DNA of 64,000 nucleotides from Agarophyton chilense. Lineage: Eukaryota > Rhodophyta > Florideophyceae > Gracilariales > Gracilariaceae. The first letter of the stretch is position 1; each line of letters opens with the position of its first letter. The stretch spans positions 620,001 through 684,000 of the forward strand of contig JARGXX010000075.1 of the NCBI GenBank assembly GCA_030374765.1, in the 5' to 3' direction. The notes under the pieces were generated by a model that saw nothing but the letters and a program-made list of their open reading frames with translations, had not been told where the DNA came from and did not search any database. Shown in pieces: positions 2,845 through 64,000 of the stretch. A program made the translations under genes and the position numbers.

Positions 2845-2999
2845 TTCATTGCTCTCAAAGTCATTTGGGCTGTTACCTTACTCGTCCGCCGCATTGGCTT
2901 CATCAGTTTCAACAGATACATGGACTTCCTGTTACGGAACAGGCGCGACTTCAACGCTATCGTGCGATACAAGTTCTATTTCCTCATCTATCTCATGAC

Positions 3000-3960: not shown

Positions 3961-4152
3961 AGTGGGACAGATAAAGTACTAGAATTTTAAAGACGTGCGG
4001 AATCACGATTTGATCATGCTTTTCGACATATCTTAGCAGTATTCGTCGTTAATAGAGTGAAAAACTGAGATCCTCCGCCCGTTAAGAAGATAGCGTATCG
4101 ACGCACAAAACGTATCAGTTTTATGCTCATTATGTACTTCAGAGCACGAGAT

Positions 4153-4750: not shown

Positions 4751-4857
4751 ATTCAGCTGGTTTTGACTGTTCCAACTGTAATGGCTATTTCTCACGCAAC
4801 ATTGTGTTGAGCAGTGCTTCTTTGTGCGAGTATCGCGGTACAAATCATCCATAGAAG

Positions 4858-5658
4858 CTACATATGCCGAAGAAAAATAATAAAATGTTTCTGTGTAGAG
4901 GGATGTTGAAACTTGCGGAGAGCCGCTGTTTGTGCTTCCTGAATGACGATCCATACCGTCTTTATCAAGTGTCCCAAGTAGTTGACGGTGCCAACGTACC
5001 ATTCGCACTTTTTGAACTTCAGGGTTATATCTGCGATTTGAAGTGCTTTGAGGATCTCATCGACATGCCTTAAATGGCTTTCCAAATCTTTGGAGAAGAT
5101 GATGTCATCCTCCAAAAAGAATAAATGTGTCTTCCATTCATGTCTTCAGAGATAAATGTCTAGAGCACGCTGAACAGCTGGTGCATTTGATATGCCCAAT
5201 GGAATCCTTTTGAAACGGTAGAAACCGTCGTGTCACGTGAATTTGGTCTTGTTCCGGTCTTAATTTTCTATTGACAACTGCCAAAAGCCTGAGTTGGCGT
5301 ACAACGTGATGAACTCGTTTTCTTCTCCAAAGCTTTTCATAAATTTGTCCATTTGGGGCAGCAAATATGCATCCCAAACTATAACTGCGTTCAGTTTTCC
5401 GTAATCGATACAGAATCTTTGAGAATCATCGAAATTTGAAACCAGAATTATTGGTGAGGCCCACGCAGATTAAGCTGCTTCTTTAACTACCTCTTCCAGC
5501 ATCTTGCTGACTTTTTCCTCCTCGATCTGAAGAATAGCAGGTCCTTCTCTGTCGGGTGGCTCGGAGATGGGTTGGGACCCTCGAACTACATCAATAGGAT
5601 GTTTCGTAGCGGATCCCTCGCCTAACTTCCCACTCCACAGGGAGGCATACTTCTCCAC
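4858..5658 (-). pseudogene. Reverse transcriptase of gypsy element
   Basis: Reading across an in-frame stop near 5470 gives the RT fingers (ASPIILV...FCIDYGKLNA), the palm (TLYANSGFWQL) and the catalytic loop (LEDDIIFSKDLESHLRHV), followed by KKCEW...YLGHLI. In the usual TLDANSG motif the Asp is Tyr, so one catalytic carboxylate is lost. The LEDD loop is also distorted from YxDD. The fold assignment is secure, and the enzyme is dead. Confidence 0.85.
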
Positions 5659-5661
5659 CAG

Positions 5662-6345
5662 TTACCTGATCTTCGTTCTGAAGTTTGGTGGCACATAAGC
5701 TAAGTCTATCTCATCAATCAGTGTTTCCGGATCCTTCGAAGCCTGCCATTGATCTTCAGACGGAGTTTTAAATTGTTCGTCTGTTTCACCGACATTGGTT
5801 AATCCCAATAATTCTAAGGTATAAATACGATTAGAGAACACCATTGTGGATTGAAGCAAAGCTGTTGGAACAACCTGACTTTTCGGGATTTGACAATCGT
5901 TATCGGTGAATTTACTCAACCGTATCCAAAAGGGTTTACCAGGTTCAACCTGAACATTGCCGTTAGCAACTAGCAATCTACTAGAATCGTTTATCCGAGT
6001 ATTTGGATCAATTAGCACGAGTCCGTGTCGCTCTGTTCTTACTTGATCCCATGTTTGGATCTGAGCCCTCATCATTGCAGTCCTCGATATTGAAATCTCC
6101 GGTGGGACATGTCCTTTGAATTTAACCTACTCCGTAGATGGTGGAAGAGGAGGTGCTTCACGGCAATAACGTCGCGGCTTGGTAAAAATAGGGACCGTGG
6201 ATCTGTCATCTTGTTCTACTAGTTTCCTTCGCGGGCGAATTGCTTCGAAAAACCTTTCGCAACAATCACACCCCGGCACCAATGGTGCAGCTAACGTCTT
6301 ACACACGATGAAGTCGACTAGGACCATGTAGCACCCTAGTCGCAC
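5662..6345 (-). pseudogene. Protease end and protease-RT linker of gypsy element
   Basis: The piece 6345-6127 reads as the C-terminal half of a retroviral-type aspartic protease (GCDCCERFFEAIRPRR, then the V-P-I motif before the linker). The next piece (6075-5662) is the linker between protease and RT, with VEPGKPFWIRLSKFTD. A homologous linker fragment lies at 60313-60421, showing that another member of this family existed in the region. The catalytic DTG of the protease was not found here. Confidence 0.6.
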
Positions 6346-7417
6346 TACGAGTCAAATTGTTCAAAGTACCTTTACAATATTTTTGTGTGAATCCCGGATT
6401 TAAGGTGAAGGACCGTATCGAATAAGTTCTAAGTCACTAGGAGCAAGGTCCAACATCTGTAAAAAAATTTGAACCTGCACCTGTATCCGGGATAGTCAAT
6501 CGACGAGGACAAGTCAACATAATCCTGTAAGAGCATATGTCAACATAGACCTTTTAATTTCTTTTAGACATTACAATGAGATAGATTTCCCGTTTTGACG
6601 GCCAATTAAAACGTCTCCAAGGACAGTTTAACTCAAAGTCAAACTGTACTTGCTTTCCGACATGCGGGTTACTTTCGTACGGGGGAAATTTGGGCGACCT
6701 CAAGAGAATCCTGGGCTTCCAAGCGCGGGAGCAGAGAGGCAAGCTCTGCCTGGTCAGCACTATAACATCGACTATTGCCGACCCCCTCGAGACTCCCTCA
6801 CTAATTTTTCTGTCTGCACCAGCCTATTTGCGTCAAGGGCTTTTTTACTACCAGGGTTTAGGGTTGTAGCCCTTCCGCACTCTGAATAACTGGCTAGTCC
6901 ACCTGACTCATTGACGTCTGGGAAAATCAAGTTAAGGGTTTCCAATACATGCTTACCGGTACGTCGCTCATTCCCTCTTCGGAAAGAGCTTCGTGTCTTC
7001 GCGATGATTCAACTCATATTATTTGCAAAGAGCGTTCATTCTGCACTCAAATAGTGTTGTCCATAATATGAATAGCATATGAAACCGTCACGACGGGCGG
7101 TCAAAATAGATTGCGAACCGTAGACCGTGTGAGTATCTACCCATCCGGGTTTGCCGTTCTTAAATTCTCCCGTCGTTGCATCGTATACGGAAGATACATA
7201 GAGCGACGGCCCTCCGTTTACAGAAGGGCTTATCTATCTTGAGACTACGAGTTTGGGAGGTCCACTTTGGGTACAGGTAAGTCCCCATATTCCATTAGAT
7301 GGATCTCTTTTTCATTTGAAGTACCCATCCTGGGGTACCAATGACGAATCAAATGAGTTTACTTGAGATTTTAGATGTAGCAGTTTCCTGTGCCAATTGG
7401 ATCTACCAATACAGGAA

Positions 7418-43961: not shown

Positions 43962-44330
43962 CTACCATCCTTCGAGGAAGACTCGGACATCTTCGTGTGT
44001 TTCCGCCGCCCTTGGTGTTGCACTACAATTCGGGTCAAAATGTACGAAAGGTTTTATTCTGTCCCCCCGGACTTTGCAGCGACCACGGTATCGATCTATA
44101 CGGCCGGTGTCGGTGCGTTTGTACTGGTATGTCACTTTCAGTGGAATGAGTTTGATGTGGGGGGCCAATTCTGAATCGGGCTCCATTCAATTGTTCCAGT
44201 GTTATCAAGTGTATCTAATTTTGTGTCGTGGGCTGCTGCCCAGTGTGTGGTGCCCGCGTGTTGGCGGGGATGTGGAAGGGATTTAGGTGGTGGGGTGTTA
44301 GGATCTACGGTGAGCGGGACAGGTTGTCTG
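43962..44330 (-). pseudogene. N-terminal piece of copia reverse transcriptase
   Basis: Across one frame change the strand reads HWAAAHDTKLDTLDNTGTI then IKLIPLKVTYQYKRTDTG and YRGRCKVRGDR. These match the copia RT beginning (W..A...EL..L...GT; P.KWVYK.K....G.I.RYKARLVARG). The catalytic palm is missing, so the RT is dead. Confidence 0.7.
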
Positions 44331-44451
44331 ATATGGGCGGCAGCATGAAAGGCGTGGAATTTGTGATAGAGGGGGTCAAGCTGGTGATATTATGGTTGAA
44401 AGTAGATTTCTCGAAGGTGTTGGTAGTTGTTGGTGCGGAGGTTGAGTGCAA

Positions 44452-45236
44452 TTATGTGGGTCGGTGATATATTGTGCATAAAACGTGCTGGATTTGCACG
44501 GGCTTCGAGTATCTTCTTGTGGTGCTGGTAATTCGGGAAAGTGCCCAGCTGCCGATAGCAAATAGTTTCGGTATTTGAGGGGCTTGATTGTACCAGGATT
44601 GGAATGGCGATGTGCCGGTGTTGTCGTGGATTGTGATGTTGTACTTATACATGACGTCCTTCATAGCGTCTTCCCAGAGGGAATAGTTCAGGTTTGAATG
44701 GTGTAAGGCTGCGCGTGTGGCGATGACCATTCTGCGGTACATAAGTTCGGCCATGGAGTTTTCTTGTGGTTGATGCGGGGTGTTTGAGCGATAGTCGATC
44801 CCATGAGAGTTGTACAAATTGCTCATTTCGTTGCTTTGGAATTCCTTTGCGTTGTCGGTTCGGTGGATGGTCAGGGTGTTGTTTTGTTATGAAGGACATG
44901 GCCAGCGGGGTTGTTTGTTAGACTGAGGAGTGGTCGGAGATAAAAAATGGAATTGAGGAACCGGTTCTTGGCGTCTATGTAAGTGACGAAGTGGATGTTG
45001 CCGTGCCGTGACGAGGGTTTGAATGGTCCACAAGTGTCACTACTGATATAGGAACCGACGGGGTATTCGCGTTTCGTAGGTTTGTGAGGGTGGGGGGTCT
45101 GTTTGGGGGAGGGGTGTGGACCCGGTGAGCTGGGGGGGGTGGGTTTTGGAGGGTTGTGGGGAGGATTGGGAGAGTGGGGGCTTTGGCCATGTGTTGGAGT
45201 TTGTTGAGGTTGATGTGTATCAGTATGACATTCCAT
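44452..45236 (-). pseudogene. Copia integrase
   Basis: Two frames together give the core. The first catalytic Asp is in SSDTCGPF, the second in TDNAKEFQS, and the Glu in QENSMAELMYRRM. The following SLWEDAMKDVMYKYN and TSPFQSWYN match the copia integrase C-terminal side. A Pro- and His-rich insertion lies before the core, including a 15-bp tandem repeat at about 45371-45415. Frame changes interrupt the gene, although the DDE triad itself is kept. Confidence 0.8.
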
Positions 45237-45604
45237 TGGAAGAAGGTGTGGGCGCGGGGAATAAGGGGTGGTGTGGTGCTGGGAGGCTGGATTTGTTGGA
45301 GACGTGGGGCGCTAAATGGAAGTGGTCGTGATTTGGAAGAGAGTGCTGGGGTTTGTCGGAATATAAATGTGGGTGGTTTCGCTTTGGGTGGTTTCGCTTT
45401 GGGTGGTTTCTTTCGTGTGCGAGTCTTGGGTTTGTGACTATGGAGAGGTACTGTGCCAGCGCCGAGGGCACGCTGAGGGGTAAAGGAGGCCTGTCAGTGT
45501 AGTATGTATGCATGTTTGCGCCAGGGAGCAGTGGAAATAGGGAATGGTTTGAGAGGGTGGTGCAGATTGAGTATATAGCCAGAGTGTGGTGTGAAAAGAG
45601 CCGC

Positions 45605-46243
45605 TCAGAATTGAAGAGCTGTGTCGCTGACAGACAAGAGGTTGGAATGCTGCGATTTGGTTGCGACGCATTTTACGCGGAGTGGGGCGTGCTTAGGGTG
45701 CAATTGGATCTGTTTGGGGCCGGAATGTTTACATGGGGTTGTGTGGTTAGTGGCAGTGAGTAAAGAGACTGATTGTTGTACCGCAGGCAGAGATGGGGGA
45801 GGTGCACGTATATGAATGGGGTGCGCGGCGGAGTCAAAGATGAACGTACCTTCTACCTTGTTGTTGATGTGTTCCTCGCGAAGTGGTTCCTCTTTTTCGG
45901 CATCGCCTGGTTGTGTGGCATATGCATAATGCGGTGGCGGGAAAGGAGCGAATGGTAGTAAAGGGAAATGTCGGTAGGGTGGTATGGCGTCGGGTTGGGC
46001 GGCAACGGCTTGGTTCACACGGGGTGCGGGTGATTCAGCGTTGGCGTTTGTTGGAATGCGGTTGAATTTTGGGTGGCGCCTGTCTCTGCATTGTTCATCT
46101 GTATGGTTGGGAGGGAATCTCATGAATTGTTGGTGAAATGAGCAAGGCCTGGCTGGTGCTTGGATTCGATCATTTCGTTGCGGCAGAAATGGTGCGTTTG
46201 TTTTGTAAGGTTTCGCGTGTGGGGGGGATCGGACCTGTCGCAT
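45605..46243 (-). pseudogene. Copia Gag C-terminus and protease
   Basis: This is a 212-codon frame. A Pro-rich, His-containing region is followed by FIFDSAAHPIHI, which occupies the place of the copia protease active site (normally LDSGAxxH). Gly is replaced by Ala in the catalytic triplet. Variants of LSVSDTALQF follow. A classical CCHC knuckle is not intact. Confidence 0.55.
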
Positions 46244-46292
46244 AAAGTGTAGAGCTTGGAGGGGTTGGAGAGACCATGCTATAAGATTTGAG

Positions 46293-47176
46293 TCAATTAT
46301 AGTTATGGAGAAAGTCTTTGATAGTGTCTGGGTTGATAGCCATTAGCTGGGGGGCGATTTCTATAGTGTCTTGGTTGAATCGTAGGCCGTCGATGAGAAA
46401 TTCAACGGAAGTGGACTCGTCCAAGATATTTGGGTATTGTGCTGCGATCATTCGTGTACGTAACGAATGGTGTTTTTCAACGTAGTCGTCGATGGACATG
46501 TTGGAAGTGAGGTGTAGATTTTCCCCTTCAGATTTTAGGTATCTGTGTTAGTTCTTTGTGTTTGTTCGTAGGTGATCCATGATCGCTTTTAGCAGATCTT
46601 TGGGAGTCGAGTCCGTTCCGACATTCAGAAGATTCAACATTTTTGACAGAACGGTGGAGAGAATCAGAGCGCGTAAAGTGTGCTTGTTTTTCTTAAACTG
46701 CTGAGGCTGGGCAGGGTTGGCGGGTTGATCGGGGTGGATGTAAGGTGGTAGAGTGCATCCATCGTTGTTGCGCTGGACTCAAGCGCCATTTTCCAAAAGA
46801 CTGGATTTTGGCCTTTTAACTTGGGTACATGAAATTTGTTATCCATGTTGATTGATGTATTGTTCTGTACGGTATCTATTGGTTGGGAAGTATCGGATTC
46901 TGTGAGATGGGTTAATCTGAGGAGATGTTTCGCAAGATGGCGATCGGTAGTCTGATCCTGTTGACGCTTGTAGCGTTGGGTGCGAAGACTTTGAGGCTCC
47001 GTGGGGTAAATTGATTGTGGAGAGCGTACGTGTTGAACAAGATAGTACAAGAGGGAGAAAGAAGAAAGTGCGTTGCGTTTCAATGGGGGAGGGGGGGGGG
47101 GGAGGTAAGACGAGATAGAGGGTTGTGATGTGGACGAGAAGGGGGCGGGATATTTAAGTTGTAGCGCAGGGTCCAT
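46293..47176 (-). pseudogene. Copia Gag N-terminus
   Basis: KFHVPKLKGQN...MALES near 46840-46770 matches the start of copia Gag (KFxIxKLDGxNYxxWK). The piece 46499-46293 (MSIDDYVEKHHSLRTRM...VEFLIDGL) matches the later Gag helix (YxxxxxxLxxxL...ILxGLP). A leader of about 100 codons precedes it after the primer binding site. Confidence 0.65.
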
Positions 47177-47180
47177 AACC
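47164..47180 (-). promoter_or_regulatory. Primer binding site of half-tRNA(iMet) type
   Basis: Read on the minus strand, directly after the 5' LTR end (GCAACA), the sequence is GGTTATGGACCCTGCGC. Its complement, AGGGTCCATAACC, resembles the anticodon arm of eukaryotic initiator tRNA-Met (GGGCCCAUAACC). Drosophila copia and yeast Ty5 are known to be primed by an internal iMet tRNA end in this way. The match has differences, so the call is by similarity. Confidence 0.6.
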
Positions 47181-47295
47181 TGTTGCGAGGAAGCTCTAGC
47201 TCAGTTTTCTCTGGACTGCGCCGACTGGCGGCTTGTCTATGTACGCTCTCGGCTACAGGCATGTGTCACGTGTCGTTTGTGTGTGTGTTCTGATA
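47181..47295 (-). repeat. 5' LTR of copia element
   Basis: This is a direct repeat of 43013-43127, ending (minus strand) in CTCGCAACA next to the primer binding site. See the 3' LTR for shared landmarks. Confidence 0.7.
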
Positions 47296-49059
47296 TACAA
47301 AGAACAGACTAACTGAGGATCGGCAAAGCTTGCTCATTAAATGTGGCTAAATCGTAATTCAGGCGTGAATAGTAGGTTTGTGGGTTTGCTTATTAAAAAT
47401 GAGACGGTTCGAAAGCGGTCAATGTTCCCAAAATAAAGGAAAATTTTTGGTATTTTAGAAAAGTCTGAAAAAAACATCTTGCATGTTTGGTTCGGGATTT
47501 TTGAAACGGGTGAAGTGGAATTACTGTTCCTTTTCATTTAAGGAGAGACGTATCCCGGTAATGTCAGCGGTAGTGCTCCAATTGTGAGATCTTGTAGAGG
47601 GTTACTAAATACTCGAGTCGTAAACGCAGCGGATTGAAAACCTGTACGTCAGTCTCAACGCCTCAAAGAGAGATTAAGGGTGGTGAATCTTTATCTGATG
47701 ACCAAACCAAATCCGTGCAGGATATCCAAATTTTATGAAAAGCATCTAAGCGACTTTTGAATTATTAAATTTGTTTTCATGGAAGATTTGGAGAGAACAC
47801 AGAACATAGTGACAAAAAACATGAAGAAATTTAAGGACCGGCTGAAACAATAAAAGAAAAAAAGCTAAAGCTGAAAAAGCTTCCGTGAAATTCAGAGAGA
47901 TTTTGGAAAACGTTGTAATCGCTACTAATAATAACTCTGCCTAAGAGTTCGACAGTTAAGAAGAACACAAACTGATGTTGGTTAGAAGAGAACTTTTTCA
48001 AGTTGGAGATGGTGAATATGAAGTTTTGGGTTTCTTTCACTATTAAATCGTTTTCTCAGCAATATACTTCTGTTGAAAGTGTTTGAGAGGCCGAAAATAT
48101 TTGAAAAGCCCTCAATAATTGTTTCTTCTATTTGAATACAGTGACAGCTCGCTACGCTCGTACTATAACGCTTCTCATTTTGTCTAAGTAATACTGACAA
48201 GGAAAGAAAATTTTGGCAACAGCAATCCAATTTTTAATCCGAAGCTATATTGTTATAAACTTCCACGCGATGGAATACGATCGACTTCACTAAAAAAAAT
48301 TAAGTCCCAGCCAGCTCACCCGCACTCCCCAACAATAAATCCTAGACCAAAAACCCATTTAAATCCCACAACCAGGTCCACTCCTACTTTTCAAATTGAA
48401 CTTCCTACCTCTGATATATGTTCCATGATCCAAGTTAATTTTCTAAAAGACAATTTTCTGTGAGGAAGAGTTTTTCAGAAAACCGATTCCAAGCGTCAGA
48501 AATTTGCGAGTTGGGTGTATAGTTCTGAGTAACTTATTTAAAGTCTTTTTGGCTTAATGTCCCACATTAAGCATCAGACCCTCAGACCATTATTGGAGCT
48601 GCACGTTGAAAGATGGGAACGAACTGGTGTAAACCGCTTCGAATGACTTACGTTGGGCAGGGGATAATTCTTGAGTGCTGATAAAGTTTTTGTGGTTGAA
48701 TGTAACCGTTTAAAAAAAATTACCGCTTTGCCAACGTCCTTGACATTTAATTTCTTGGTTGGCTAGCCGAGCTTTTTTCCAGCTCTACTAGCCCGCCTTA
48801 AGCCAAATTCTTAATCAGTGCCCGGTAATCTTTCGCCTTCGCTCCACAGAAAGACTTCTTAGTTCTCTTAACCTCTCCTTCACTTCGAATAATTTCTTTT
48901 TTCATATACTGTAGCTGGATATCTTTTGGTATTGATGAGATAATACAGCAGAGGTTTTCTGACCATTTTCTGGCAGTGATATTCAATCCAGATTCAGAAA
49001 GACCCATTGATAGGGGTAACCGCATTCGAACGTAGAATCAATCTCTCCTACGTACTCCT
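47296..49059. other. AT-rich gene-poor stretch
   Basis: No motif-bearing frame. A 75-codon minus frame at 49025-48798 (KWSENLCCIISSIPKD...KRTKKSFCGAKAKD) looks protein-like but unidentifiable; it ends just before the solo LTR. No repeats recognised. Confidence 0.35.
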
Positions 49060-49506
49060 TGTAACGAAATGACTGGTAGGAGAGCGTACTGGTCTCAACC
49101 TGAGGTAGCTTGGTAGAGCGGGTCCTAAGGTCCGTATCCTGGACTGTGGCACTTCCAGAGGGCTTGGTGCAATGGTAGGTCGTTATCTGCGTAGTCCTAC
49201 AGGTTAAAACTACGGAAAAGATGGCTTGAAGACCAATTGGTGGAACTAATGTACCAAAAGGGGTAATTTAGTATCCTAACGGTGCCTACCCGATTCTAAG
49301 GGAGAAGCGTCACCCGAGCCAACTAAATATCAATGGCGAGGGGCTGAGATCTCCCTTGCACTGTAAGGCTATTCTATCACAACTAAATAAAATAAAACAA
49401 TTCTCTAAATATGTCCAGCTGAGATCGGCCAGTCCACGTGGCATCTATAAGATACCTCAGGCCCTGGCGGCTTACAGAACTAAACCGTAATCGCTCCTCC
49501 TTCACA
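49060..49506 (-). mobile_element. Solo LTR, family A (minus strand)
   Basis: This is the reverse complement of the family also seen at 11207, 50152 and 59867. It is 447 bp from TGTAACGAAATGAC (its 3' end, complement of ...GTTACA) to CTCCTTCACA (its 5' end). Flanks are CTCCT (49055-49059) and CTTCT (49507-49511), a target duplication with one change. No element body adjoins it. Confidence 0.8.
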
Positions 49507-50151
49507 CTTCTTCGAAACTAAGAAACTAAATAATTCCAGCGAAAGGATTCCTCCCCGATGCCTTGCAAGATATTGCTGGCCAAGCCTTTGGGCGTCGTTC
49601 TTTCTATCTTATTCCCGATTTTCGCCTTGATTTTATCCCCACTCTCAAGGTTTCTTTCCACCTTTTTTGGTGGTTACTTTGCTTCTTTCGTGGCGCCAGA
49701 AACCCAACTACTTTTAGTTGACGATACCACTACTGTCGATTGGTGACCTCTTTATAGGAGACCATTCACACGTTTCGTGGATCGTATCGCTTCTTCTCTA
49801 CTCTTCCTGTTTGTAGTGAAGTTCAGCCTTTAATTTAGACTCCGGCTTAGTCGTGTTTCGCTGGAGAGGTTCTTTTTCCTAATCTACCCTCTTCAGGTGT
49901 AAAACCAAACATGTTCGTGACTGGTTTGTCGTGCAGCAATGCAGCAAAAAGTGATCTCCCAACTTATAAGAACGTTGCACTACTTGTGTGTGACTGGTTC
50001 TCTTTTGAGACAATGTTCTCAGATTCCAGGCATTTCTGTCTCGTTTTCTCCAGTCTGGAACTTTTGAACTGGAAACCGGTGGATTAACTACGGTACCAAT
50101 CCGGTAGATGTCCTAACCCGAACCACAATTTACGGGTAATCGCTCCGTCAT
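49507..50151. other. Spacer between solo LTR and chromovirus 1
   Basis: No gene recognised. A segment near 49845-49870 (CTTAGTCGTGTT..CTGGAGAGG) recurs at about 43922-43952, inside the deletion scar of the copia element. This hints at another old repeat family of unknown type. Confidence 0.35.
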
Positions 50152-50597
50152 TGTGAAGGAGCAACGATTAAGGCTGAGTCCTGTAATCCGCCAGGGCCTG
50201 TGGTATCTTACAAAAGCCACGTGGGTTGGCCGACCTCAGCTGGACATATTTAGATAAATATTTTGTTTTATTTAGTGTGGTAGAATAGCTTCACAGTGCA
50301 AGGGAGATCCCAGCGCCTTGCCATTGCTACTTACTAGGCTGGAGTGACGCTTCTCCCTTAGAATCAGGTAGGCGCCGTTAGAATACTGAATTACCCCCTT
50401 TGGTACATTATTTCCATCAATCGTTCTTCAAGCCATTGTTTCCATAGCTCCGACCTGTAGGACTGTGCAGTAAACGCCCGCCCATTTCATTAAGTACTCT
50501 GGGAGTGCCGCCGTCAAGGATACGGACCTTAGGACCCGCTCTACCACGCTACCTCAAGTTGGGACCAGTAGGCTGACTCACCAGTTATTGTGTAAAA
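50152..50597 (+). repeat. 5' LTR of chromovirus 1 (family A)
   Basis: Starts TGTGAAGGAGCAACGATTAA and ends near TTATTGTGTAAAA, where sister copies end GCGTTACA. Same length as the 3' copy (446 bp). Diverged from it at many sites. Confidence 0.8.
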
Positions 50598-53085: not shown

Positions 53086-53918
53086 TGACCACAGCTGTAT
53101 TGGACACAGGCGTTGGTCCCAACTTGGTCCATCCTAAGCTGCCCCCACTGGGTTGGCAAGATTTCATTTAGGCAAGGAAGACCCCAAGGATTACCGATGC
53201 GTCTCGTAGACCAATAGGTATTAAAGGGATAGTACCACTTTACCTCCAGGTAGGACAATTCAAAGTCCCCACGTGGTTTCTTGTATGTCCTAACTTTGGC
53301 GCCGAGGTAATCCTAGTGACCTCCTTTATCGTTCAATACATCAAGGCCACTTATCCAGGCCTTAGGAAAGTAGCGTCCTACCACGCACCTTCCATCTCCA
53401 TAACTGGTTCAATCCCAGGGCCAGAAGCTAACTGCAAACGAGCGGTTGTCTCCGAAAACACGAAGTCTAATAAGGCTCGCCTTTCAAAGGCCATAACGAT
53501 ACCGCCGATGACCCAAATCGCTGTATCGGTCCATTCCCAGTTCTCAGGTCTCGTAACGTTTCAGAACCACCCGAAAACGGTTCTGAAGCACCTCACCTTG
53601 ATGGCCAATGGAGTAATGGACATCCACCTCAACAGGTCCTTTTCGGTCACAATCAGCAACTTCCGAGATAAAGCCGTGCGGTTGCCTAAAGGTAAAGTGA
53701 ATGGTTTCTCTCTACCCGCGCCCGTGACCATTAAGGAAGCCCGAATAGATAACCTTGGGACTCCCACTCCCGCCGAGGACGTCGACTCTTGGGAGTGGAC
53801 GGTCGCCATCGACGCAGAACTCGAGTCGTTTAGGCCCCAGGTACTTGATCTCCTCAAGAAATACCAAGCCATGTGGTCAGGTAGATTTGGCACAATCAGA
53901 GCCTACACACCACATTGA
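53086..53918 (+). pseudogene. Aspartic protease and protease-RT linker of chromovirus 1
   Basis: AVLDTGVGPNLVH near 53105-53145 is a retroviral-type protease active site with the DTG triplet kept. A TAG interrupts at about 53167, and CPNFGAEVILVTSFI ends the domain (usually ILGxxF, Gly lost). The linker to RT runs to 53918, where a frameshift moves the reading to the RT frame. Confidence 0.7.
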
Positions 53919-54570
53919 CCTTCAGGATGATGCTAGGCCACAATTCCAGCCCCCATACCGTACAGGCCTTAAGGATAGGGAAACTGTCGCCGACCAGATG
54001 GACAAGATGCGCAAAGCTCAAGTCATAGAGCCGGCACCTTCTCATAAATCCGAATGGGCAAGTCCCTTTGTCCTTATGACGAAGAAAGATGGCTCCGTCT
54101 GGTTCTGTGTCAACTACAGGAAGCTGAACGCAATAACCAAGAGGGGCTCATACCAGACAACCCGCATGGATGACTGTCTGGATTCCTTAGGCGAAGCTGT
54201 CGTATTTACGACACTGGGCGCTAACTCCGGATATTGGCAAATCTGTTTGGCCGAAGATGCGAGAGCGCTGACAACCCTTACCTCCCATGAAGTTCTGTTC
54301 CGATTTACTCGTATGACATTTGGTTTAAAGAATGCACTAGCAACTTTCCAAGGGGTAATGGACATCACACTGTGCAGAGTCCAATGGAAGTTCGCCGTGG
54401 TCTATTTGGATAACGTTTTAATCTTCTCACGGAACGTAAAGGAACACCTTCGCCACGTGAACAAGGTTCTAACAATTCCAAAGAACGCTGTAGTAACACT
54501 GAAACTCCGCAAATGCACTTTCTTCCAGGCCTCAGTGGAGTATCTCGGTCACGTCGTCCTCCCAGGATAG
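53755..54570 (+). pseudogene. Reverse transcriptase of chromovirus 1
   Basis: A nearly complete RT: HHIDLQDDARPQFQPPYR, ASPFVLMTKKDGSVWFCVNY, TLGANSGYWQI, MTFGLKNALATFQ, YLDNVLIFSRNVKEHLRHV and FFQASVEYLGHVV. The fold is unmistakable, but TLDANSG has become TLGANSG and YxDD has become YLDN. Two of the three catalytic aspartates are therefore lost, and it ends in TAG. The copy could only move with enzyme supplied by another element. Confidence 0.9.
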
Positions 54571-54576
54571 CTAAAG

Positions 54577-55220
54577 GTGGCCACACGGACCACAATTGCT
54601 ATTCGCCCGGCTAAGCCTCCTAGGACCCACACGGAACTGCGATCCTTCGTGCGCTTGTGCAATGTCTACCGACGTTTCATCCAAGGATTTGCTAAAATAT
54701 CGGCCCCTCTCAACGCCATGTTGAAGAAGGAATCACCTTCGAAGTTTGAATGCCGTACCGAGGACCAATATCAGGCGTTTCAGACCCTAGAGGACAAATT
54801 GCTGAGCCCACTCATATTGGCTTTAACAAACCATAGAGGCCCTTTGTCCTGGATACAGACACCTCTGATACCCAAGTGGGATGTGCACTGCTACAGGAAC
54901 AGGAGTCACCGAAGGACTATCGACCTATTGGATACTGGAGCATAACGCTCACCAGCGCGGAGCGAAACTGCAGTACTCCCGAAAACGAATGTCTAGCCAT
55001 CGTATGGTCCGTATTGACACTCCTTCTGCAGCTCGAGGGAACTAGGTTTACCATTAGGACAGACCACGATTCACTCCGCGGGTTACTCAATACGACCGAT
55101 GCATCAAGTCGCCTCGCTCGGTGGCGCCTCAGGCTGTCCGAATATCACTACTAGATAACCTATGGGCCAGGCGTCAAGCACCAGGGAGCAGATGCCCTCT
55201 CGCGAATCATTACCGATGGA
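54577..55220 (+). pseudogene. RT connection and RNase H of chromovirus 1
   Basis: SFVRLCNVYRRFIQGFAKIS starts the connection region. After a frameshift at about 54860-54880, RNase H continues with LTSAERNCSTPENECLAIVW and FTIRTDHDSLRGLLNTTDAS, then RWRLRLSEYHY, a TAG, and GVKHQGADALSR. The first catalytic Asp (VLDTDTSD) is also readable at about 54848-54870. Confidence 0.85.
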
Positions 55221-55235
55221 ACTGATGACAATTCA

Positions 55236-56582
55236 TTGGACGACCTAATCCCTACGCCCTTTACAGACGATGGACCTCAGGACTATACGGAAACGGATGA
55301 CCTTATGGGTAAGGTGCAATCGGAGGATCTTGAGGTAAAGGACAACGAAGTATACCTATTAGACTGGAAGACAGTACCGCCCAATTCGACACCACTTCAG
55401 GTTAATGCGATAGCCCCGGAGAAAAAAGAGCTCCTCCCTATAACTCTTGAGAAACTCCTACAGGCGCAGGTCGAAGACGAGTACTGCAAGGAAACAGCCC
55501 AATTGGTACGAACCCCTGGATGCATATTCGGCTATTACCAATTTGGACTACTATGTCGCCGCTTACCGCTGAATGGCGCACCCCAACGGGTAATACCAAC
55601 TTCGCTAAGGGCTCGATTCCTATACCTCGCCCATTTCCCTCGCTTGGCTGGTCACCCTGGAGGCCTACGAATGTACCAGACCCTACGGAAGTTCTTCTAC
55701 TGGCCACTAATGGCGCAGGACCTATGGAAACCTGCACGGAATTGCACATCGTGCCCACAAATCTGAAGGTCTCGCGCCAACCATCAGACCAAATTGAAGC
55801 TCTTCCCCGCCGCAGGTTTGATGGAATTTGTCGCGATGGACATACTTGGGACTCTGCCTAAGTCGTCCCATGGAAAACGGGTTGTCTTTGTTGTAACCGA
55901 TAGGTTTACCACACTTACCCCAGCCCTACGCCTAGGGAAGACAACGGCCACGGATGCTGCCACGGCCTTCTTGTCCCACTTGGTATATCTATGTGGCATG
56001 CCACTCTATCTCCTTACGGATAACGGCAGCCAGTTTGCATCCAAATTCTTCTTACACGTTTGTGCGACCTTAGCTATCAAACATGTGACCACCACGTCGT
56101 ACCACACGCAAACCAATGGCCAAGCCGAACGCTTCAACCGCACCCTTCTGGACCGATTGGCACACTACGTATCGGAACACCAATTGGACTGGGACGACTA
56201 CGTTGAGCCATTGGTTTATGGCTACAACACGCAAGTGCACGCTTCCAAGGGAACAAAAACTTTCGATTTAAGGCTAACTAGATTGAAACCGCCGATAGCT
56301 CTTGACCTGAAGGAGTCTATCATGCCCCAGGGCATAACCAAAGAGATGATTCCTACCCAGGCGAAGCGCTACTCGCGCCGACGCATCGACCGCATTATCC
56401 AATCGGCTAGAACTGCATTGACCAAAGTCCAACGGCGTTACAAGGTCAATTTCGACAAGGCAGTTTGTAGCACACCGACCTTTTGGAAAGGAGAACTTTC
56501 TTACCTGGACCGGCCACCGAAGGACGATGAAGAACTCGAGGACACTACGCGGGAGCTCTTACCCCGCTCTACGAGACCATAA
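55236..56582 (+). pseudogene. Integrase of chromovirus 1
   Basis: The zinc-binding HHCC part (HFPRLAGHPGGLRMYQTLR...CTSC) ends at a TGA at 55764. The core follows with the full catalytic triad: Asp in FVAMDILGTL, Asp in LLTDNGSQFAS and Glu in NGQAERFNRTL. Further down, RRYKVNFDKA and WKGELSYLDRP lead into the C-terminal module. The core frame (55794-56582, 262 codons) is uninterrupted and is the best preserved part of pol. Confidence 0.88.
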
Positions 56583-56889
56583 AAATTCCATGAGACAAAT
56601 CAACATACCATTACGTTCCTAACTGAAGGCCTACAGGAAACCGTATCTATTGATCGGGTGACACGGCCCCCCAGCTCCCCCGCATCATCAAAGTCCCAGT
56701 TCGCTGGCCCAACGGAATCACTACGACCTCAGGTCAACGCTCATGCCCCCACACCCCCATAGGTAGTTCCTGCAGACCCGACTAGCCCCATAGACTCGAT
56801 GGTTAATCCAAACGACGACGACCCATCTCTTCCATCCGACTCCGATGGATTCGCCCCTCTGGACCACACTCTTCTGTCGGAGAATTAAT

Positions 56890-57180
56890 ACCAACCGGAA
56901 CATTTGATTGAGCGTATTACCTCCGCTGGTCGGGGAGAAGATGGAACTATGCGCTATCGTGTCCGTTGGTTCGGCTAAACACCTGAGGAAAACAATTGGC
57001 AAGAGCCTGAAACCATTCCGGCTAATTTCATCGCCCGCTATTGGCGCAAAATCGGCAGCACGGAGCGCAGCCTTCAGGAGGGGGCAACCATTGGTCCGAA
57101 TAATTCCAAAACGCGTCCCAAACCGCCTCCCGACACGAAGGTTCGCCGTAGCTCCTGCATCAGAGAACAAATTCAGTCCT
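56890..57180 (+). pseudogene. Chromodomain at the C-terminus of chromovirus 1 Pol
   Basis: In another frame than the integrase, 56890-57055 reads HLIERITSAGRG...MRYRVRWFG, a TAA, then TPEENNWQEPETIPANF. This is the chromodomain pattern (I-L-x-x-R ... Y-x-V-x-W-x-G ... T-W-E-P). The Trp is kept, but the first aromatic-cage position is not aromatic. Chromodomains steer integration of chromoviruses to marked chromatin. Two stops flank and cut it. Confidence 0.75.
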
Positions 57181-57677
57181 AAGGTGACACCTGAAGAAGA
57201 CCCGAGACGCTCTTAAAGTTGGACGCCGTCCTGGGGCACGCACGTTTGAGATACAAGAACGACCTTGGGAAAGCACAAGTATTACTTTTGTTTGACAAAC
57301 TAGTTCCATGATCTCAAGGTTCGCAGAAGCGCGCCTAACACCAACAGGACTCACTGGGGCGGTGCAGGAGTAACTCCGTCGTCCTCATTGGACCCTGCAA
57401 GAGCGAAATCGGGACTAGGGTCACACAACGAGCCAACTGGACCAATAGGACCGGACCCAGCGAGCCGGGCACGCTTCTTCGGCGGAGAGTCACCTAAGGA
57501 ACTATCCTCACCATCGGAAGCCTCCTGGTCACTCAAATTTAGACCATACCGGGTATCTAAGTCGGCAATAACCCTTTAGGACATCACTTGGGCATTTTGA
57601 TGCAGGATATTGACCATGGCAGTCTTCATATCGTGACACTGTTGGATATCCGCGGCGTAGCGCGCCGAGCGGCTCGC

Positions 57678-59641
57678 CTAGGAGCAAGATTCCCTCAGGA
57701 CTTTCGCAAGGTCCATCGAGGCAGTGATACAGACGGTACGGTAGACATGACAGAGATCCGCAGCTGCAGCTGTGACCAAAGCAGGAAAGTGTGGCAACGG
57801 AGAGGACGAAGCGATGTCGACGCCCCCATAAGACGTTTGAGCCAGCGCATCACCTACAGGACTTTCGGCCACGACAGTAACCTCTCCAGGAGGGATGTCC
57901 ACATAGGAAACGGGGGGCTCATAAGGGAGCTCATCCTGAGGAGCAGCGCACGGAGAAGGTGGAGGAGGGGAAGCGGTTGGCAACACAACAGCGGACTCAA
58001 CGGGAGGATTAACGACCTCTACGGGTAGGACGAAGGGATCTTCACCGAAGGATTCCCCATCGGACAAACCAGCAGAAACCAATGGCGTGGCTTCCACATC
58101 AGGCTCGAAGCGCAGGGGATCGAAACCAATGGCCTTCGGATAGTAATCGGGCAAATGACGCCTCGGAATATCCGATGGTTGATTCCTCAAAGGCTTGGCG
58201 GGATAGGCACGAGCATCGTCCCAACCCTGAGGATGTAGCGAAATCGGCGTGAATGAGTCGGTATCATGGTCATTCCAAAGCAACCCGAGAGTCTTGCCCC
58301 TCTCAACCTGCAGAACATGATCCAAAAGGGCCTCGGTGTCCTCGACATCGAACTGGGTCCCACGAACAATATTCTGGATGCACAGGTTCCTTGGGAAACG
58401 GATCATGATGTCCGGGACCGGGATTGGGCGATCTCGAGAACCGGGTATGTTCTCGTCGTACCATACCCTCCAATCCACTGAACGGACATTACCACGGATT
58501 TCGTACTTCGCGGTATCCAGGAAGGCGATGAGAAAAATTACGCCGAACTCAACGAAGAGTACCTGCCAGGATAGCCACGACCTCCGGTTATTGTCTTCGC
58601 CCATGAGTTGGGACTGGTGGTATGCCACCACAGACGGCGTTGGAACCAAAGGGAGCGGCGAGACACGCCAATAAATGGCCCATTGGTTATCATCCTCGTG
58701 GGAAAGCGGAAGATATAACGGAAGACGTTTGTATGCGCTCATGTCGTGGAAATCCACCTGATGCCAACAAAAGAAGAACCCAAGGGATTGACGCAAACGA
58801 CCATCGGGCTCGTGCATCTCGTTCCAAGAGACCCTATTGGACATCCGAAACAGGCGGTCGTACGGCGGCCGGAAGCACATAAGCGCCAAGAGGTTGTGAC
58901 CTGCGGGAGGGAATCGCACATGAGGCGAGATGAAGTCCAGGTATAGGACCTAAAGGAGTTTGTTCACCCTGAGCTGGTACTCGGCTTCCTCCTCGCAGTG
59001 GACGTATGGAATGTTCGCTTGGATAAGGGTGCAACAGGGCGTCGACGAAAGTGGATCCACGGGACAATGCCTCCATCGTTTATACCACGAGACGCTGCGC
59101 GCGTTCTTGCTGCCCCTCCGGAAATCGGGTATCTTGGTAAACCTTCGGGCGTCGAGATACATTTGACAGAATCCTTGGTATTCTTACACAGAGAACGGAA
59201 GAATGGCATGACGCACCACCCGCGGGTTTCGTCCGATGGTATGGCCATAGCGGTCCCCGGGGTGCTCATGAAACATTTGGTATCCCGAGGAGCTCCCTGC
59301 TTGGTTGTCAGAAGCCATGGTGCCGCTGCCCACAGGCTGGTCCGCCGGGAAACGGATGGGGAAGCCGACGGAGGCGACATAGTCCGAAAGGAGAACGGCG
59401 TATCCGACGAGCTTATAAGGCAAGTTCGGCATCGCGCGCGACGAATGGAAAATTACCACGATGGGAGGACGGGGTGACAGAGTTGACCTGAACGGACTGA
59501 CAGTTGTGAACCACGGTGGACGAAGCATGGAGGGTCGCCAAAGGAAGAACAGAGACTAAGGAAGATCCCAATGACCATCAGAGGAGAAGAACCCAATGGA
59601 TCGTCTCGGCAACGCGACGGAGGAATGCGCTGGCGATGCAC
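57678..59641 (-). pseudogene. Antisense accessory gene of chromovirus 1 (degraded)
   Basis: Reading against gag-pol, the frame 58919-57678 is open for 413 codons. Upstream pieces (59162-58950, 59380-58964, 59528-59184, 59641-59453) continue it in other frames toward the polypurine tract. It aligns by eye with the antisense frame of chromovirus 2 along most of its length. Examples are LRQSLGFFFCWHQ with RSRFGFLVFYQN; LYLPL with RYVPLP; PTPSVVAYHQSQLMGED with LPPVVSYLGSYLIED; and SWYKRWRHCPVDP with SWDRRRRVAVPVH. The C-terminal third is acidic and Pro-rich. No signal peptide or known domain. Confidence 0.7.
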
Positions 59642-59852
59642 CTATGGCCAGCGCTCACTGCGCGCGGAAGTTTCATTTTTTAGGCAAATTAATTGCCCTT
59701 CGGCGCCAATGGTCAGCTCATGCTTCCCCGCATCCCCGCAGGCGATGATGACGCGACTTCTCGTCGCGCCCAATGGTACCGGGAGAAACAAATTGATCGC
59801 GTCCCTGGGTCAATCATGAGGCCATCTGAACTTCGCCGTGATCGCTGAATCC

Positions 59853-59866
59853 TAAGGAGGGAGATA
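59853..59866 (+). promoter_or_regulatory. Polypurine tract of chromovirus 1
   Basis: TAAGGAGGGAGATA directly precedes the 3' LTR, where plus-strand DNA synthesis is primed. The same 14 bases occur at the matching place of chromovirus 2. Confidence 0.8.
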
Positions 59867-60312
59867 TCTGAAGGAGCGATGGTAACGGTTGAGCTGTGTA
59901 AGCCGCTACGCCCTGAAGGATCATACAGACGCCACGTGGACTGTTCGACCTCAGGTGGACTCATGTGGATTATTAATTTATTTTAATTAGTGTGATAGAT
60001 AAGCATTACAGTGCCAGGGAGAGCCCAGCGCCTCGCCGGTACTATTTACTTGGCTCGGGTGACACTTCTCCCTTAGAGTATGGTAAACCCCGTTAGGATA
60101 CTAAATTACCCCCTTTGGTACATTAGTTTCACCAATTGGTCTTCAAGCCATCTTTTCCGAAGCTCCGACCCTTAGGACTACGCAGTAAACGTCAGGCCAT
60201 TGCACCAAGTACTCTGGGAGTGCCGCCGTCAAGGATTCGAACATTAGAACCCGCTTCACCACGCCACCACCGGTTAAAACCCGTACGCCGGCCCACCCGT
60301 CGTTGCGTTACA
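59867..60312 (+). repeat. 3' LTR of chromovirus 1 (family A)
   Basis: 446 bp, from TCTGAAGGAGC after the polypurine tract to GCGTTACA. Homologous to 50152-50597 and to the two solo LTRs. Confidence 0.85.
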
Positions 60313-60421
60313 GAATTAACTCAAGTCGATGACACATACAAAGAATTTCAAACTCAGTCTGGGGATCGATGGAGAAATGCGAAGGATCCTTAGAGCATGG
60401 ATTATGAACCAGATCTAGCAC
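60313..60421 (+). pseudogene. Fragment of a third gypsy pol (protease-RT linker)
   Basis: The plus frame reads ELTQVDDTYKEFQTQSGDRW and continues WRNAKDP. This aligns with LTNVGETDEQFKTPSEDQW and QASKDP in the linker of the left-hand gypsy element (5662-6075). It is squeezed between the 3' LTR of chromovirus 1 and the 3' LTR of chromovirus 2, so at least one of them inserted into an older element. Confidence 0.6.
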
Positions 60422-61306
60422 TGTAGGACAACGCTTGGAGAAGAGACACCACGAAGATGTTCGGGATCTTCCTCTATTGAGATAAAAGCCTCAGGCGGAG
60501 GAGACGCGTCCCAGCGGAGCACAGAAACAGAGCCACTCTGGAAAGGCACGACGGAGTCGGGTGTAATACCGAGGCCAATCCGGCGGGATATACCTAGAGT
60601 GTTTAGGTGAGCACGGCACAGTCCGGGGTGTGACCAATCCTAGGCGGAGCGGTACCACGGCGATTGTCGGAAAAGGAGCGAGGTAACATTAGTATGGGGT
60701 GGACGAGCGGGGTGAGTGGTGCGGCCACTCACGAGAGCCAAAAACGAAAACAAGAGGAAACGGGGGCGAAACCCTATAAAAGGGCGAGACTACGACAAGT
60801 GTCGGCGATTAAATATGAACCCACGGTGGTGGTAGCACTCTGGTCGACAGAGGGGTGGATGAAGTAACGTGCCACGGGCGCTCACGCAGTATACGGTGAA
60901 GACGCGCCGAAGGCGAAAAGTTCAGAGCCAAGACTCCCTCCTTGGGATCCCAAGAGGGTGTTTACTGGGGAGCAGTGCTCAACCTCCTATGTAGTGTGGC
61001 GCGAGGCTCCTGACAGTCGGCGCGCGCCCGAAAAATAGACAGTAAATAGCGATAGCGTAGCCAAATAAATACTAAAAATTACTAAATAATACTAACCATT
61101 AGGTAGAATCCGGGCCACGTGTGGCACGCCTCGTACTCGAGCGTTGGCATCCGTGCAGTCCACGTGTTCCACCCGTGTGCACTTCCGGTTCTACCCGGCC
61201 GTCAGCACGCAATAGCGGTCTAGCTTGTCATAGCCCAAGCTATTCCTCAAGCGGGCGAAACTTCTAAGTCCTGCGAAGTAACCCCCATGAAGGGCATTGT
61301 CCTTCA
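60422..61306 (-). repeat. 3' LTR of chromovirus 2 (family B)
   Basis: Plus-strand ends are TGTAGGACAACG and CATTGTCCTTCA, an imperfect inverted repeat (10 of 12) with TG...CA ends. The inner end touches the polypurine tract. 885 bp long. The other LTR is outside the window. Confidence 0.7.
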
Positions 61307-61320
61307 TATCTCCCTCCTTA
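61307..61320 (-). promoter_or_regulatory. Polypurine tract of chromovirus 2
   Basis: The complement is TAAGGAGGGAGATA, immediately inside the 3' LTR on the minus strand and identical over 14 bases to that of chromovirus 1. Confidence 0.8.
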
Positions 61321-61341
61321 GCTGACGAACACGCCGTCGAC

Positions 61342-63186
61342 ATGGCGGGGAGGCAACGGTCCAACCGGCATAAGAGCGAGCCGCGTAACTCGTCCAGCGA
61401 CCACTCGACTGTCGAAGGCAGAGCTGCATCACCGAACGACAATCGCAAAAACGCGGTAACCACTCCTCGAACTTCGAGCGCTCTTCCGCACCGTACGCCA
61501 ACTTCCAGCGATCACATCCCGATACCTCAGCGACCAGCACTCCCGATGAACGGTGGTAACAGTCCCCGCCAGGGTTACTTCTCCGGTTTCCATGCGGCTC
61601 CCCTTCCGCGGGGGAGTGCCTCCTCAACCGCGCCGAGCCGATCCCGGGGTCCCGTTGAAGCTTCAAGCCACATCACTCCTGCGGAGCGCACCTGGCCCAG
61701 TTATGACGAGCTCGTCGGGTTAAACCCGCGTCAACATGCGGCGATTCTCCGGAGAGCTCCGTGGTTCCATCTGACAGCCGTCTTCGACGAAGAACTTGTG
61801 GCTGCGTATGCTGATGGCAATGCGCGACTCCCGGGCGAGCTGCCGGATTTGATCACCACTTCGTGGGACCGGCGACGCCGTGTGGCGGTTCCCGTTCACG
61901 CGATTCTGCGGCGAAGGCGCGAGTCGGCGGAAGAGGCGCATTGTACCTTCGTCCGCATCGGCTACTCACGGATCAACCGGGAAAACTTTCAATACCCCAT
62001 CCGCGATGAATTCGGCTTCGACCTACGGATGTACCGGACTCAGGGTGAGATCGGCTATTGTGACTGCCTTGCGGCGTTGGAAACTTAAGCATGGCGCGGT
62101 CAACCGCGAGCCCGTCAAAAAGCGATCTGCTGGGTCCGTCCGATCATTCGTGAGTCTCGATATCGGTGGTTACAGAACTTCGTCCGCAAGGAGCGTCGGG
62201 GCAGGTCCCGCTTTGGGTTCCTTGTCTTTTATCAGAACACGGAGATAAACCGAACTAGTCCCTTTTACCAGTTTGGGCGATATGTTCCCCTGCCTGGGTG
62301 GTGGTCCTCCGTGGAGGTGTGCCAGGGATGTTACGTGGAGTTGCCTCCAGTCGTCTCCTATCTGGGCTCGTACCTAATCGAGGATCCGCACTCCGGCTTA
62401 TAGTACGTGGTCCTAACCGAATGGGCAGTCCGCGCCGCAGCATACATCTTGTGGGAAGCCTACGACCAGTATCGACTGTGGTATCTTCCTCCGCGTTTGC
62501 GTGGTTACATCCGGCAGCTGGACCTTCAACTCCCTCTTGGAGGTGTCAATAACGCTGATGAAGCTCAGGAGCTCATCGACATCAGCGGGCGTGTCGACTG
62601 GGCTGTCGTGCCTGTCCGGCAGAGCGGCCGTGGTCAAGAAGCCGGTGGGGCTGATCGGTCTCCGGGGCGACGCTCGCCGTTGGCGGGAGATTTCATCTTC
62701 TTTAACCCATGGGAGCAGCAAGGGATCTCCGAGGCGGAGGTGTCGGCATTCCGGATGGCTCCGCGAGGCATACCATACGGGCACCCCGTGGGGTTTGTCA
62801 ACTCAGATGACTTCTACTACGCCTATGGCGGTGATGATCTCCCGGAGGAGGCGGGCGCATACCGTGGCGACGAGGTCATGGAAGACGTGGTAGACCCCGA
62901 TGGTGCCGATACTACGGCGCGGCCGGCGCAGGGAGCGACTCACGCAGGTGCGGTGGTCGATCCAGTGGCGGCGCCATTGCCGGACGAATCGGAAGTTGTC
63001 GAGGTTCCCATACGCCCAGAGGCGATCGTGATCTCCCAGCTCCTTTGGGGTGTTGGACTGAACGCCCAAGCGGCGAGCGGCGACATCAGTGCGATGAGAG
63101 ACGCCCTCGCGGCACGCCTGGCCGGTGGGAGTAACCGTTCTAGCGATTCGGGTGGCGCGCACGGCAGTCCGGGTTATTTCAACTAA
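61342..63186 (+). CDS. Antisense accessory gene of chromovirus 2 (two in-frame stops)
   Basis: One plus-strand frame runs from the ATG at 61342, 21 bp from the polypurine tract, to a TAA at 63184-63186. That is 615 codons broken only by TAA at 62086-62088 and TAG at 62401-62403, with no frameshift. The N-terminal 110 residues are Ser, Arg and Pro rich (disordered). A globular middle contains SYDELVGLNPRQHAAILRRA, RSRFGFLVFYQN and LPPVVSYLGSYLIED. The C-terminal part is acidic with Ala/Pro linkers and a final helix (ISQLLWGVGLNAQAA). No signal peptide, membrane span, zinc finger or catalytic motif seen. It faces pol tail-to-tail with 191 bp between stops. Homologous to the degraded frame of chromovirus 1. 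Function unknown. Confidence 0.7.
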
Positions 63187-63377: not shown

Positions 63378-64000
63378 TTATCCCCATCGGGTGTCTTCTT
63401 GTACCACTTGGGCTCGGTCTGTGGTAGCCGGCAAAGCCGTGAAAGTACGACGATGATACTGTACCACCTTTGACCGAGGTGGGTGCTCTATCGGTTCGTC
63501 TGAATCCCATTCGGGGCCGTACCCGTACCAACGAACCAAGTATTGGAGATACCCCTTTGGGTGGTAGGAGTGCTCCAGAATGCGTCCGACCACGAACTCT
63601 TGTCGGTAAACTTCCCGGCCATCCCGTATGACGGTGTCGCTATTTCCGGGTGGTACCCGTCCTGAGCCAGGGCGTACCGAAGTGATCACGCGTTGGGCGG
63701 CTTCGCTCCAGTCAGGCCGTGTAGCGCGCAAGGCAGTCCTCGGCTGAGTAGAATGTCGACCCGACTTCGGCGGTTCATTTTCTCCAAGTGCCGGACTTCT
63801 TTCGGCGCTTCCCACTGCGGTTGGAGGACCCACACCAGCGGGTAACCCGGGTGGTCGTTCCACTAATCGGCGTGGTGAATCTCGCTTCGGCGGTGAGATT
63901 CGCTGGGGCGGTGGCGCATTGTCGCATCTCTCTGTACCACGGCGAGATTCCGTGTAGTCACGTGAGCGTTCCAATGGCTGGCTGTCCGGCGTCGGCGCCG
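63378..64000 (-). CDS. C-terminal Pol of chromovirus 2 with chromodomain (partial)
   Basis: The frame is open from the right window edge to the TGA at 63378. A Pro/Arg-rich linker leads to a chromodomain at about 63600-63440: EFVVGRILEHSYHPKGYLQY, then LVRWYGYGPEWDSDEPIE. The three aromatic-cage positions are Phe (in EFVVG), Trp and Tyr (in RWYGY), as needed to bind methylated lysine of histone H3. No stop in about 200 codons, so this end of pol appears intact. The integrase should lie just beyond the window. Confidence 0.8.
   Translation of the reverse strand, partial: APTPDSQPLERSRDYTESRRGTERCDNAPPPQRISPPKRDSPRRLVERPPGLPAGVGPPTAVGSAERSPALGENEPPKSGRHSTQPRTALRATRPDWSEAAQRVITSVRPGSGRVPPGNSDTVIRDGREVYRQEFVVGRILEHSYHPKGYLQYLVRWYGYGPEWDSDEPIEHPPRSKVVQYHRRTFTALPATTDRAQVVQEDTRWG

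Follow-up and report, generated by a model that had tools for sequence, protein, structure and literature searches.

A probable accessory gene antisense to pol, between the chromodomain and the 3′ long terminal repeat, in chromoviruses of the red alga Agarophyton chilense

Antisense open reading frames (ORFs) between pol and the 3′ long terminal repeat (LTR) are known from angiosperm elements (PMC11963269, PMC7264820). In Retand, an angiosperm lineage outside the chromoviruses, 97% of clusters encode TRP28 (PF04195) (PMC11963269), and Grande gene23 encodes a nuclear protein and is served by a promoter of its own (PMC7264820, PMC11963269). Two further cases are HBZ of human T-cell leukemia virus type 1 (HTLV-1), an antisense gene with its promoter in the 3′ LTR, and Boty of Botrytis cinerea, a fungal LTR element with an antisense ORF between pol and the 3′ LTR (PMC7264820). 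Here, we describe two chromoviruses (Ty3/gypsy elements with a chromodomain), element 1 and element 2, in a stretch of 64,000 nucleotides (nt) of Agarophyton chilense (assembly GCA_030374765.1, contig JARGXX010000075.1, positions 620,001 to 684,000 of the forward strand; hereafter, the window), each of which carries such an antisense frame between its chromodomain and its 3′ LTR. Place, orientation and high copy number are shared with aORF-3R of the Retand/Tat Ty3/gypsy elements (Grande gene23, RIRE2, Retand ORF4), the plant class of many-copy antisense ORFs between pol and the 3′ LTR. In contrast with Retand of angiosperms, the elements described here carry chromodomains and live in a red alga, and a Pfam search gave no match to TRP28 at E values up to 1. 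Boty resembles them in having an antisense ORF at the same place outside plants, a likeness of position. The red-algal gene lies at the same place as Grande gene23 and the Retand antisense ORFs, but the protein, the host and the element group are different.

That this is a protein-coding gene is, in our view, nearly certain. On balance, we favor the reading that it is an accessory gene of red-algal chromoviruses, inherited together with pol and placed antisense after the chromodomain and ahead of the 3′ LTR; of the functions considered for its product, that of a nuclear regulatory protein is the likeliest. The features of the two elements are as follows; the antisense frame type of element 1 is called family 1 and that of element 2 family 2.

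50154..50593, plus strand: 5′ LTR of element 1 (77.7% identity to 59869-60308)
53908..56663, plus strand: pol of element 1 (reverse transcriptase (RT), RNase H and integrase), disrupted by stops and frameshifts (Pfam RVT_1, RT_RNaseH, Integrase_H2C2 and rve; tblastn)
56889..57050, plus strand: chromodomain-like stretch of element 1, with one stop (translation read by eye, coordinates counted by hand)
57360..59318, minus strand: family-1 antisense gene of element 1, interrupted by stops, with 57678-58949 as its longest open piece (tblastn to the intact copy L012)
59854..59868, plus strand: polypurine tract of element 1, adjoining the LTR start
59869..60308, plus strand: 3′ LTR of element 1, with CACGTG at about 59933 (LTR pair comparison)
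60422..61306, minus strand: 3′ LTR of element 2, with CACGTG at 61116 and 61161 (94.4% identity to the 5′ LTR)
6033-6918 of locus L039, outside the window: 5′ LTR of element 2 (pairs with 60422-61306)
61307..61320, minus strand: polypurine tract of element 2, adjoining the LTR edge
61342..63186, plus strand: family-2 antisense gene of element 2, starting at the ATG at 61342 (ORF list; alignment to the intact copy L002)
63381..64000, minus strand: C-terminal end of pol of element 2, which extends past the window (pol in L039)
about 63483-63596, minus strand: chromodomain of element 2 (Pfam Chromo, E 4.2e-5, 23.8 bits, slightly below the cut-off of 25.1 bits)

Element 1 has the domain order RT-RNase H-integrase, a feature of chromoviruses, on the plus strand (Pfam). 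A first-pass annotation of the window had read 57678-59641 of element 1 as coding on the minus strand and 61342-63186 of element 2 as coding on the plus strand. The latter frame was borne out: it contains two in-frame stops (62086-62088 and 62401-62403), and its protein is 88.8% identical to that of L002 over 650 columns. For element 1, the minus-strand frame stood but its limits had to be moved. The conserved frame runs from 59318 to 57360 and matches residues 1-643 of the 644 of L012 in a single alignment (75% identity), no constraint was found upstream of its start, and 57678 is a premature stop particular to the window copy. Intact antisense proteins have about 610-650 amino acids (aa); both window copies carry stops.

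The genome of which the window is part (79.8 Mb in 135 contigs) was searched for further copies, as the first-pass annotation had advised, and these proved abundant: at the protein level, the family-1 frame had at least 99 matches and the family-2 frame at least 66, window copies included. Intact frames elsewhere measure, from stop to stop, 748 and 698 aa in family 1 and 667 and 658 aa in family 2. Genome searches with the database homologs P0007 and P0008 revealed two younger families (3 and 4), and in one of these searches 54 of the 77 matches were listed without a stop in the matched stretch (rows counted by hand). Among the copies fetched, in rank order, a frame of at least 622 aa was found in 12 of 18 for family 3 and one of at least 651 aa in 8 of 17 for family 4; a further locus that came with the family-4 rows, L070, proved to belong to family 2 and was left out of the family-4 set. 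Stretches beside three other chromodomains yielded family 5 (L076, 611 aa, intact) and family 6 (L078, one in-frame stop), so that the antisense gene is present in six lineages. The third, L077 (C113), was first read as another chromodomain lineage; past its chromodomain comes a same-strand frame of 206 aa, followed by a fragment of family-3 pol, and the locus is uninformative for or against the gene.

The arrangement seen in the window recurs elsewhere in the genome. The C-terminus of pol lies downstream on the opposite strand in 36 of 38 family-1 and family-2 loci, and an LTR lies upstream of the antisense gene in the same number. A like arrangement was found in L040 (family 3) and L041 (family 4) and, judged from the position of the chromodomain, in L076 and L078. 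We also paired at least 294 antisense-gene places (merged match lists) with at least 150 chromodomain matches, a list that favors other lineages, so that the test informs on orientation and not on the frequency of the gene. Among the matches listed, 10 pairs within 2 kb were tail-to-tail (389-696 nt apart), one was on the same strand (1444 nt) and the upstream side had none; under random placement the three counts averaged 0.7, 0.7 and 1.2, respectively, and tail-to-tail pairs never exceeded 3. The first-pass description of a frame opposed to pol and ending tail-to-tail with it holds for both window elements and for further loci. With regard to the chromodomain itself, Chromo was matched at E <0.1 in five of eight scanned frames, the misses being L002, L035 and L006. 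Scores above the cut-off were obtained in L014 (family 1, 28.8 bits), at the family-5 and family-6 loci (43.3 and 40.8 bits) and at C98:936840 beside a family-3 gene (37.1 bits); two family-2 frames reached 23.8 and 23.3 bits, slightly below it, and the family-4 chromodomain was recognized by eye only. The frame scanned in L006 (4073-4867, plus strand), near a family-2 copy, encodes a DDE_1 endonuclease (Pfam E 6e-28).

Evidence that the protein itself has been maintained came from the variants among 30 family-1 copies (L009-L038), the best 30 by score of at least 99 matches. Variants with a minor count of at least 5 were distributed as 50/45/137 over codon positions 1/2/3 (p 9e-16). Singletons were spread evenly (526/525/529, p 0.99), as is expected of dead copies. 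When nonsynonymous (N) and synonymous (S) changes were scored against the background copy L012, codons 105-640 gave N/S of 50/113 for variants shared by at least 5 copies versus 775/221 for singletons, a ratio of 0.13 (p 1.9e-31). The same shared-to-singleton ratio was 1.09 upstream of codon 105, and 0.48 for the C-terminus of pol, taken as a yardstick from the same loci. In the L012 frame, constraint therefore begins near a methionine, that of codon 105, and a start there gives a protein of 644 residues; the intact frames of families 2-5 have 608-650 residues from the first methionine. In family 1, dead copies drift and the active lineage kept the protein. Smaller samples were available for families 2 (8 copies), 3 (18 copies) and 4 (17 copies). 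Family-3 variants present in at least two copies fell 12/13/34 by codon position (p 4e-4), and the seven family-3 copies listed had 0-1 stops in the gene frame versus 8-22 in the other five frames. Shared variants are few in families 3 and 4 because their copies differ by 3-4% on average. Taken together, purifying selection on the protein is shown for family 1 and suggested for family 3. The first-pass annotation had proposed a conserved accessory gene under selection and not a chance open frame, and this is supported by the copy number, the intact frames elsewhere, the position in 36 of 38 loci and the synonymous and third-position bias in family 1. The dN/dS check that it put forward gave a divided answer: family-1 singletons look neutral but shared variants are constrained, and the signal is weak in families 2 and 3 and absent among the few shared variants of family 4.

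Sequence comparison also relates most of the families to one another. A common core with 32 invariant columns emerges when the antisense proteins of families 2-6 are aligned with five database homologs (10 sequences, at least two of them partial), and these families are clearly homologous. The only named homologs are from Gracilariales: those of Gracilariopsis chorda are annotated as hypothetical proteins, those of Agarophyton chilense as unnamed products. The pol sequences of families 2-4 can be aligned to one another and are 59-76% identical, and their antisense proteins are 36-49% identical; from RT to integrase, pol of element 1 is 38-49% identical to that of families 3-4, with 21-23% for the antisense proteins. 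In these four lineages, the antisense gene follows pol but evolves faster. The first-pass impression that the two window proteins align over most of their length did not hold, since only part of the families 1 and 2 proteins can be aligned, at 21-24% identity (BLASTP, 251 columns, E 4e-4), and BLASTP gave no meaningful match between families 1 and 3. Three hhalign comparisons to family 1 covered 160, 198 and 165 columns, with probabilities of 80, 62 and 89% and E values of 1.4e-5, 7.8e-5 and 2.1e-6, respectively. By sequence, then, the link of family 1 to the other families is weak, and it rests also on equal place, equal direction and similar length. The window has a third chromovirus-like pol (2994-6555, minus strand), which is decayed and 33-43% identical to those of families 3 and 4; none of the antisense proteins of the six families could be matched to this region.

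The position of the start codon suggests how the gene may be expressed. Measured at a single locus per family, the distance between the ATG and the LTR edge is 35 nt in family 2, 79 nt in family 3, 35 nt in family 4 and 24 nt in family 5; for families 3-5, only the polypurine tract and the TG start served to place that edge. A start beside the polypurine tract, as described in the first-pass annotation, is thus found in element 2; it does not apply to element 1, the family-1 ATG lying about 530 nt from the edge (in L012, edge at 631 and ATG at 1159). Because of the 24-79 nt spacing in families 2-5, the promoter is probably in the LTR, and we lean toward an LTR-driven antisense gene. This differs from Grande, whose gene has its own promoter, and would resemble genes of the HBZ type, which are antisense and read from the 3′ LTR. 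Among copies with a polypurine tract found by pattern, the U3 region contains CACGTG in 9 of 17 (family 1), 4 of 5 (family 2) and 14 of 15 (family 4), with 13, 3 and 2 copies unscored. It is also present in the single loci L040, L076 and L078 (families 3, 5 and 6), so that all six families are covered. It should be noted that CACGTG occurs 22 times in the window, that it would fall in a 250-nt U3 by chance in about 1 case of 12, and that related families are not independent cases. In several copies an AT-rich stretch, noted by eye, lies on the far side of the CACGTG box and may be a sense TATA box. Antisense transcription would then start within the 3′ LTR, and U3 would act in both directions, driving gag-pol from the 5′ LTR and the antisense gene from the 3′ LTR, with the CACGTG box between the two start regions. 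A further step, which we think improbable, is that a single bidirectional promoter in U3, with the CACGTG box of the six lineages at its center, yields both products and that the protein acts back on the same LTR. Since only the DNA copy, and never genomic RNA, allows the antisense frame to be read, the protein would signal the synthesis or integration of such a copy, and thus serve as a built-in sensor and feedback switch. If true, this switch would have arisen in red algae independently of angiosperm Grande/Retand and of HTLV.

The protein offers few pointers to its function. Pfam, NCBIfam and PHROGs contained no credible domain match to the antisense proteins (the Pfam matches shown, FhuF_C at E 0.25 on the opposite strand of L002 and DUF3905 at E 0.12, are far below the cut-offs). 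Searches of PDB sequences yielded nothing credible (best E 0.4 and 1.4, and none with a 10-row profile), IMG/VR scans with profiles A3 and A2 found no relative, and Rfam had no match within the window. A search of the open-licence literature, outside which most subscription papers lie, turned up no account of this gene. An acidic stretch is common to the five proteins examined (families 1-5): it is located in the C-terminal third and reaches a net charge of -8 to -17 in one 60-residue block. The first 120 residues are basic in families 2 and 4, but not in family 3. Near its C-terminus the family-1 protein contains PPKKRARL, which we take to be a classical nuclear localization signal (NLS) in form; the core KKRAR is intact in 17 of 30 copies. 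We tentatively regard the product as a nuclear regulator, probably associated with nucleic acid or chromatin, that would control expression or integration of the element itself. The ground for this is the analogy with Grande gene23 and HBZ (PMC7264820), and no more.

Several observations weigh against the reading of a conserved accessory gene for a nuclear regulator. Two of the 38 family-1 and family-2 loci have no pol C-terminus (L019 and L008) and two have no LTR (L021 and L033), and L023 and L036 have an additional pol match on the strand of the antisense gene. For families 3-6 the LTR edge was taken from one end only, the fetched stretches being without a second LTR (L040 and L041 checked). 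At minor counts of at least 3, the N/S ratio gave a weak signal in family 2 (0.57, p 0.28) and family 3 (0.52, p 0.08). Family 4 showed none (1.2; 17/7 versus 327/165): its shared variants look unconstrained (N 6 and S 2 at minor counts of at least 5; 19/25/27 by codon position in at least two copies), and its singletons lean to position 3 (154/156/202, p 0.013). Even in family 1, the last 108 codons, which include the NLS-like motif, are under no significant constraint (ratio 0.67, p 0.34). Families 2-5 lack a classical NLS motif, arginine runs being found in families 2 and 4 only, and an AlphaFold2 model of the G. chorda homolog P0005 from an 8-row alignment had a mean pLDDT of 38, too poor for use.

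Other functions were considered for the same protein. One, which we regard as unlikely, is that it aids the preintegration complex in nuclear entry or site choice instead of controlling transcription. Such a role has been suggested for plant antisense ORFs (PMC7264820), and would suit the NLS-like motif of family 1 and a gene adjoining a chromodomain-bearing pol, but the motif is not common to families 2-5. It is similarly doubtful that the protein counters silencing of the element by the host. Its divergence, faster than that of pol, resembles an arms race, and the copy number is high; however, nothing in the sequence or in the domain searches points to the silencing machinery, and purifying selection in family 1 is strong. 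An envelope-like or particle protein is quite improbable: the gene occupies the place of env and has hydrophobic 19-residue stretches with Kyte-Doolittle values up to 1.8, but the most hydrophobic stretch varies in place and reaches only 0.9 in family 3, and a gene antisense to gag-pol is not expressed from genomic RNA. We give still less credence to a captured host gene, or to unrelated frames that are merely alike in families 1 and 2. The low, part-length identity of these two proteins would allow it, but place, orientation and similar length are common to six lineages, families 2-6 are clearly homologous, and hhalign connects them with family 1; in addition, no host homolog was found in searches that depended on 5-residue words in common and whose scoring was limited to the top ~8,000 candidates. 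Finally, that the antisense RNA and not the protein matters, through double-stranded RNA control of the element, has been raised for plant antisense ORFs (PMC7264820) and would fit the lack of protein-level constraint among the few shared variants of family 4, but is highly improbable, as family-1 shared variants obey the antisense codon structure, so that the codon-position test largely refutes it there, and RNA pairing alone would not keep long frames open in families 3 and 4.

Some additional features of the elements and their surroundings were observed. At the 5′ end of element 2 (L039 6033-7089), the LTR is followed by a second LTR piece of 171 nt (92% identical), and no target-site duplication is evident by eye, a pattern that insertion into another LTR, or recombination with one, might leave. 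No TGG primer-binding site was seen by eye directly after the family-2 LTR (L039 5990-6034), where the palindrome AACTTCGAAGTT is located; priming in family 2 may be unusual. An inverted copy of the element-1 LTR (49060-49511, minus strand), about 0.65 kb ahead of the 5′ LTR, is probably either a solo LTR or a terminal part of another copy. The block 44001-48000 of the window has a GC skew of 0.39, far higher than the remaining 4-kb blocks.

Antisense accessory genes have been described from angiosperm elements that are not chromoviruses, some retroviruses and a fungal element. The red-algal protein has no recognizable relation to those and is encoded in at least 294 places, with direct evidence of selection in one family. 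This suggests that the same arrangement has been invented repeatedly, and provides a second system for asking what such genes do. It also suggests, judging from sequence similarity, that some annotated hypothetical proteins of Gracilariales genomes may belong to mobile elements.

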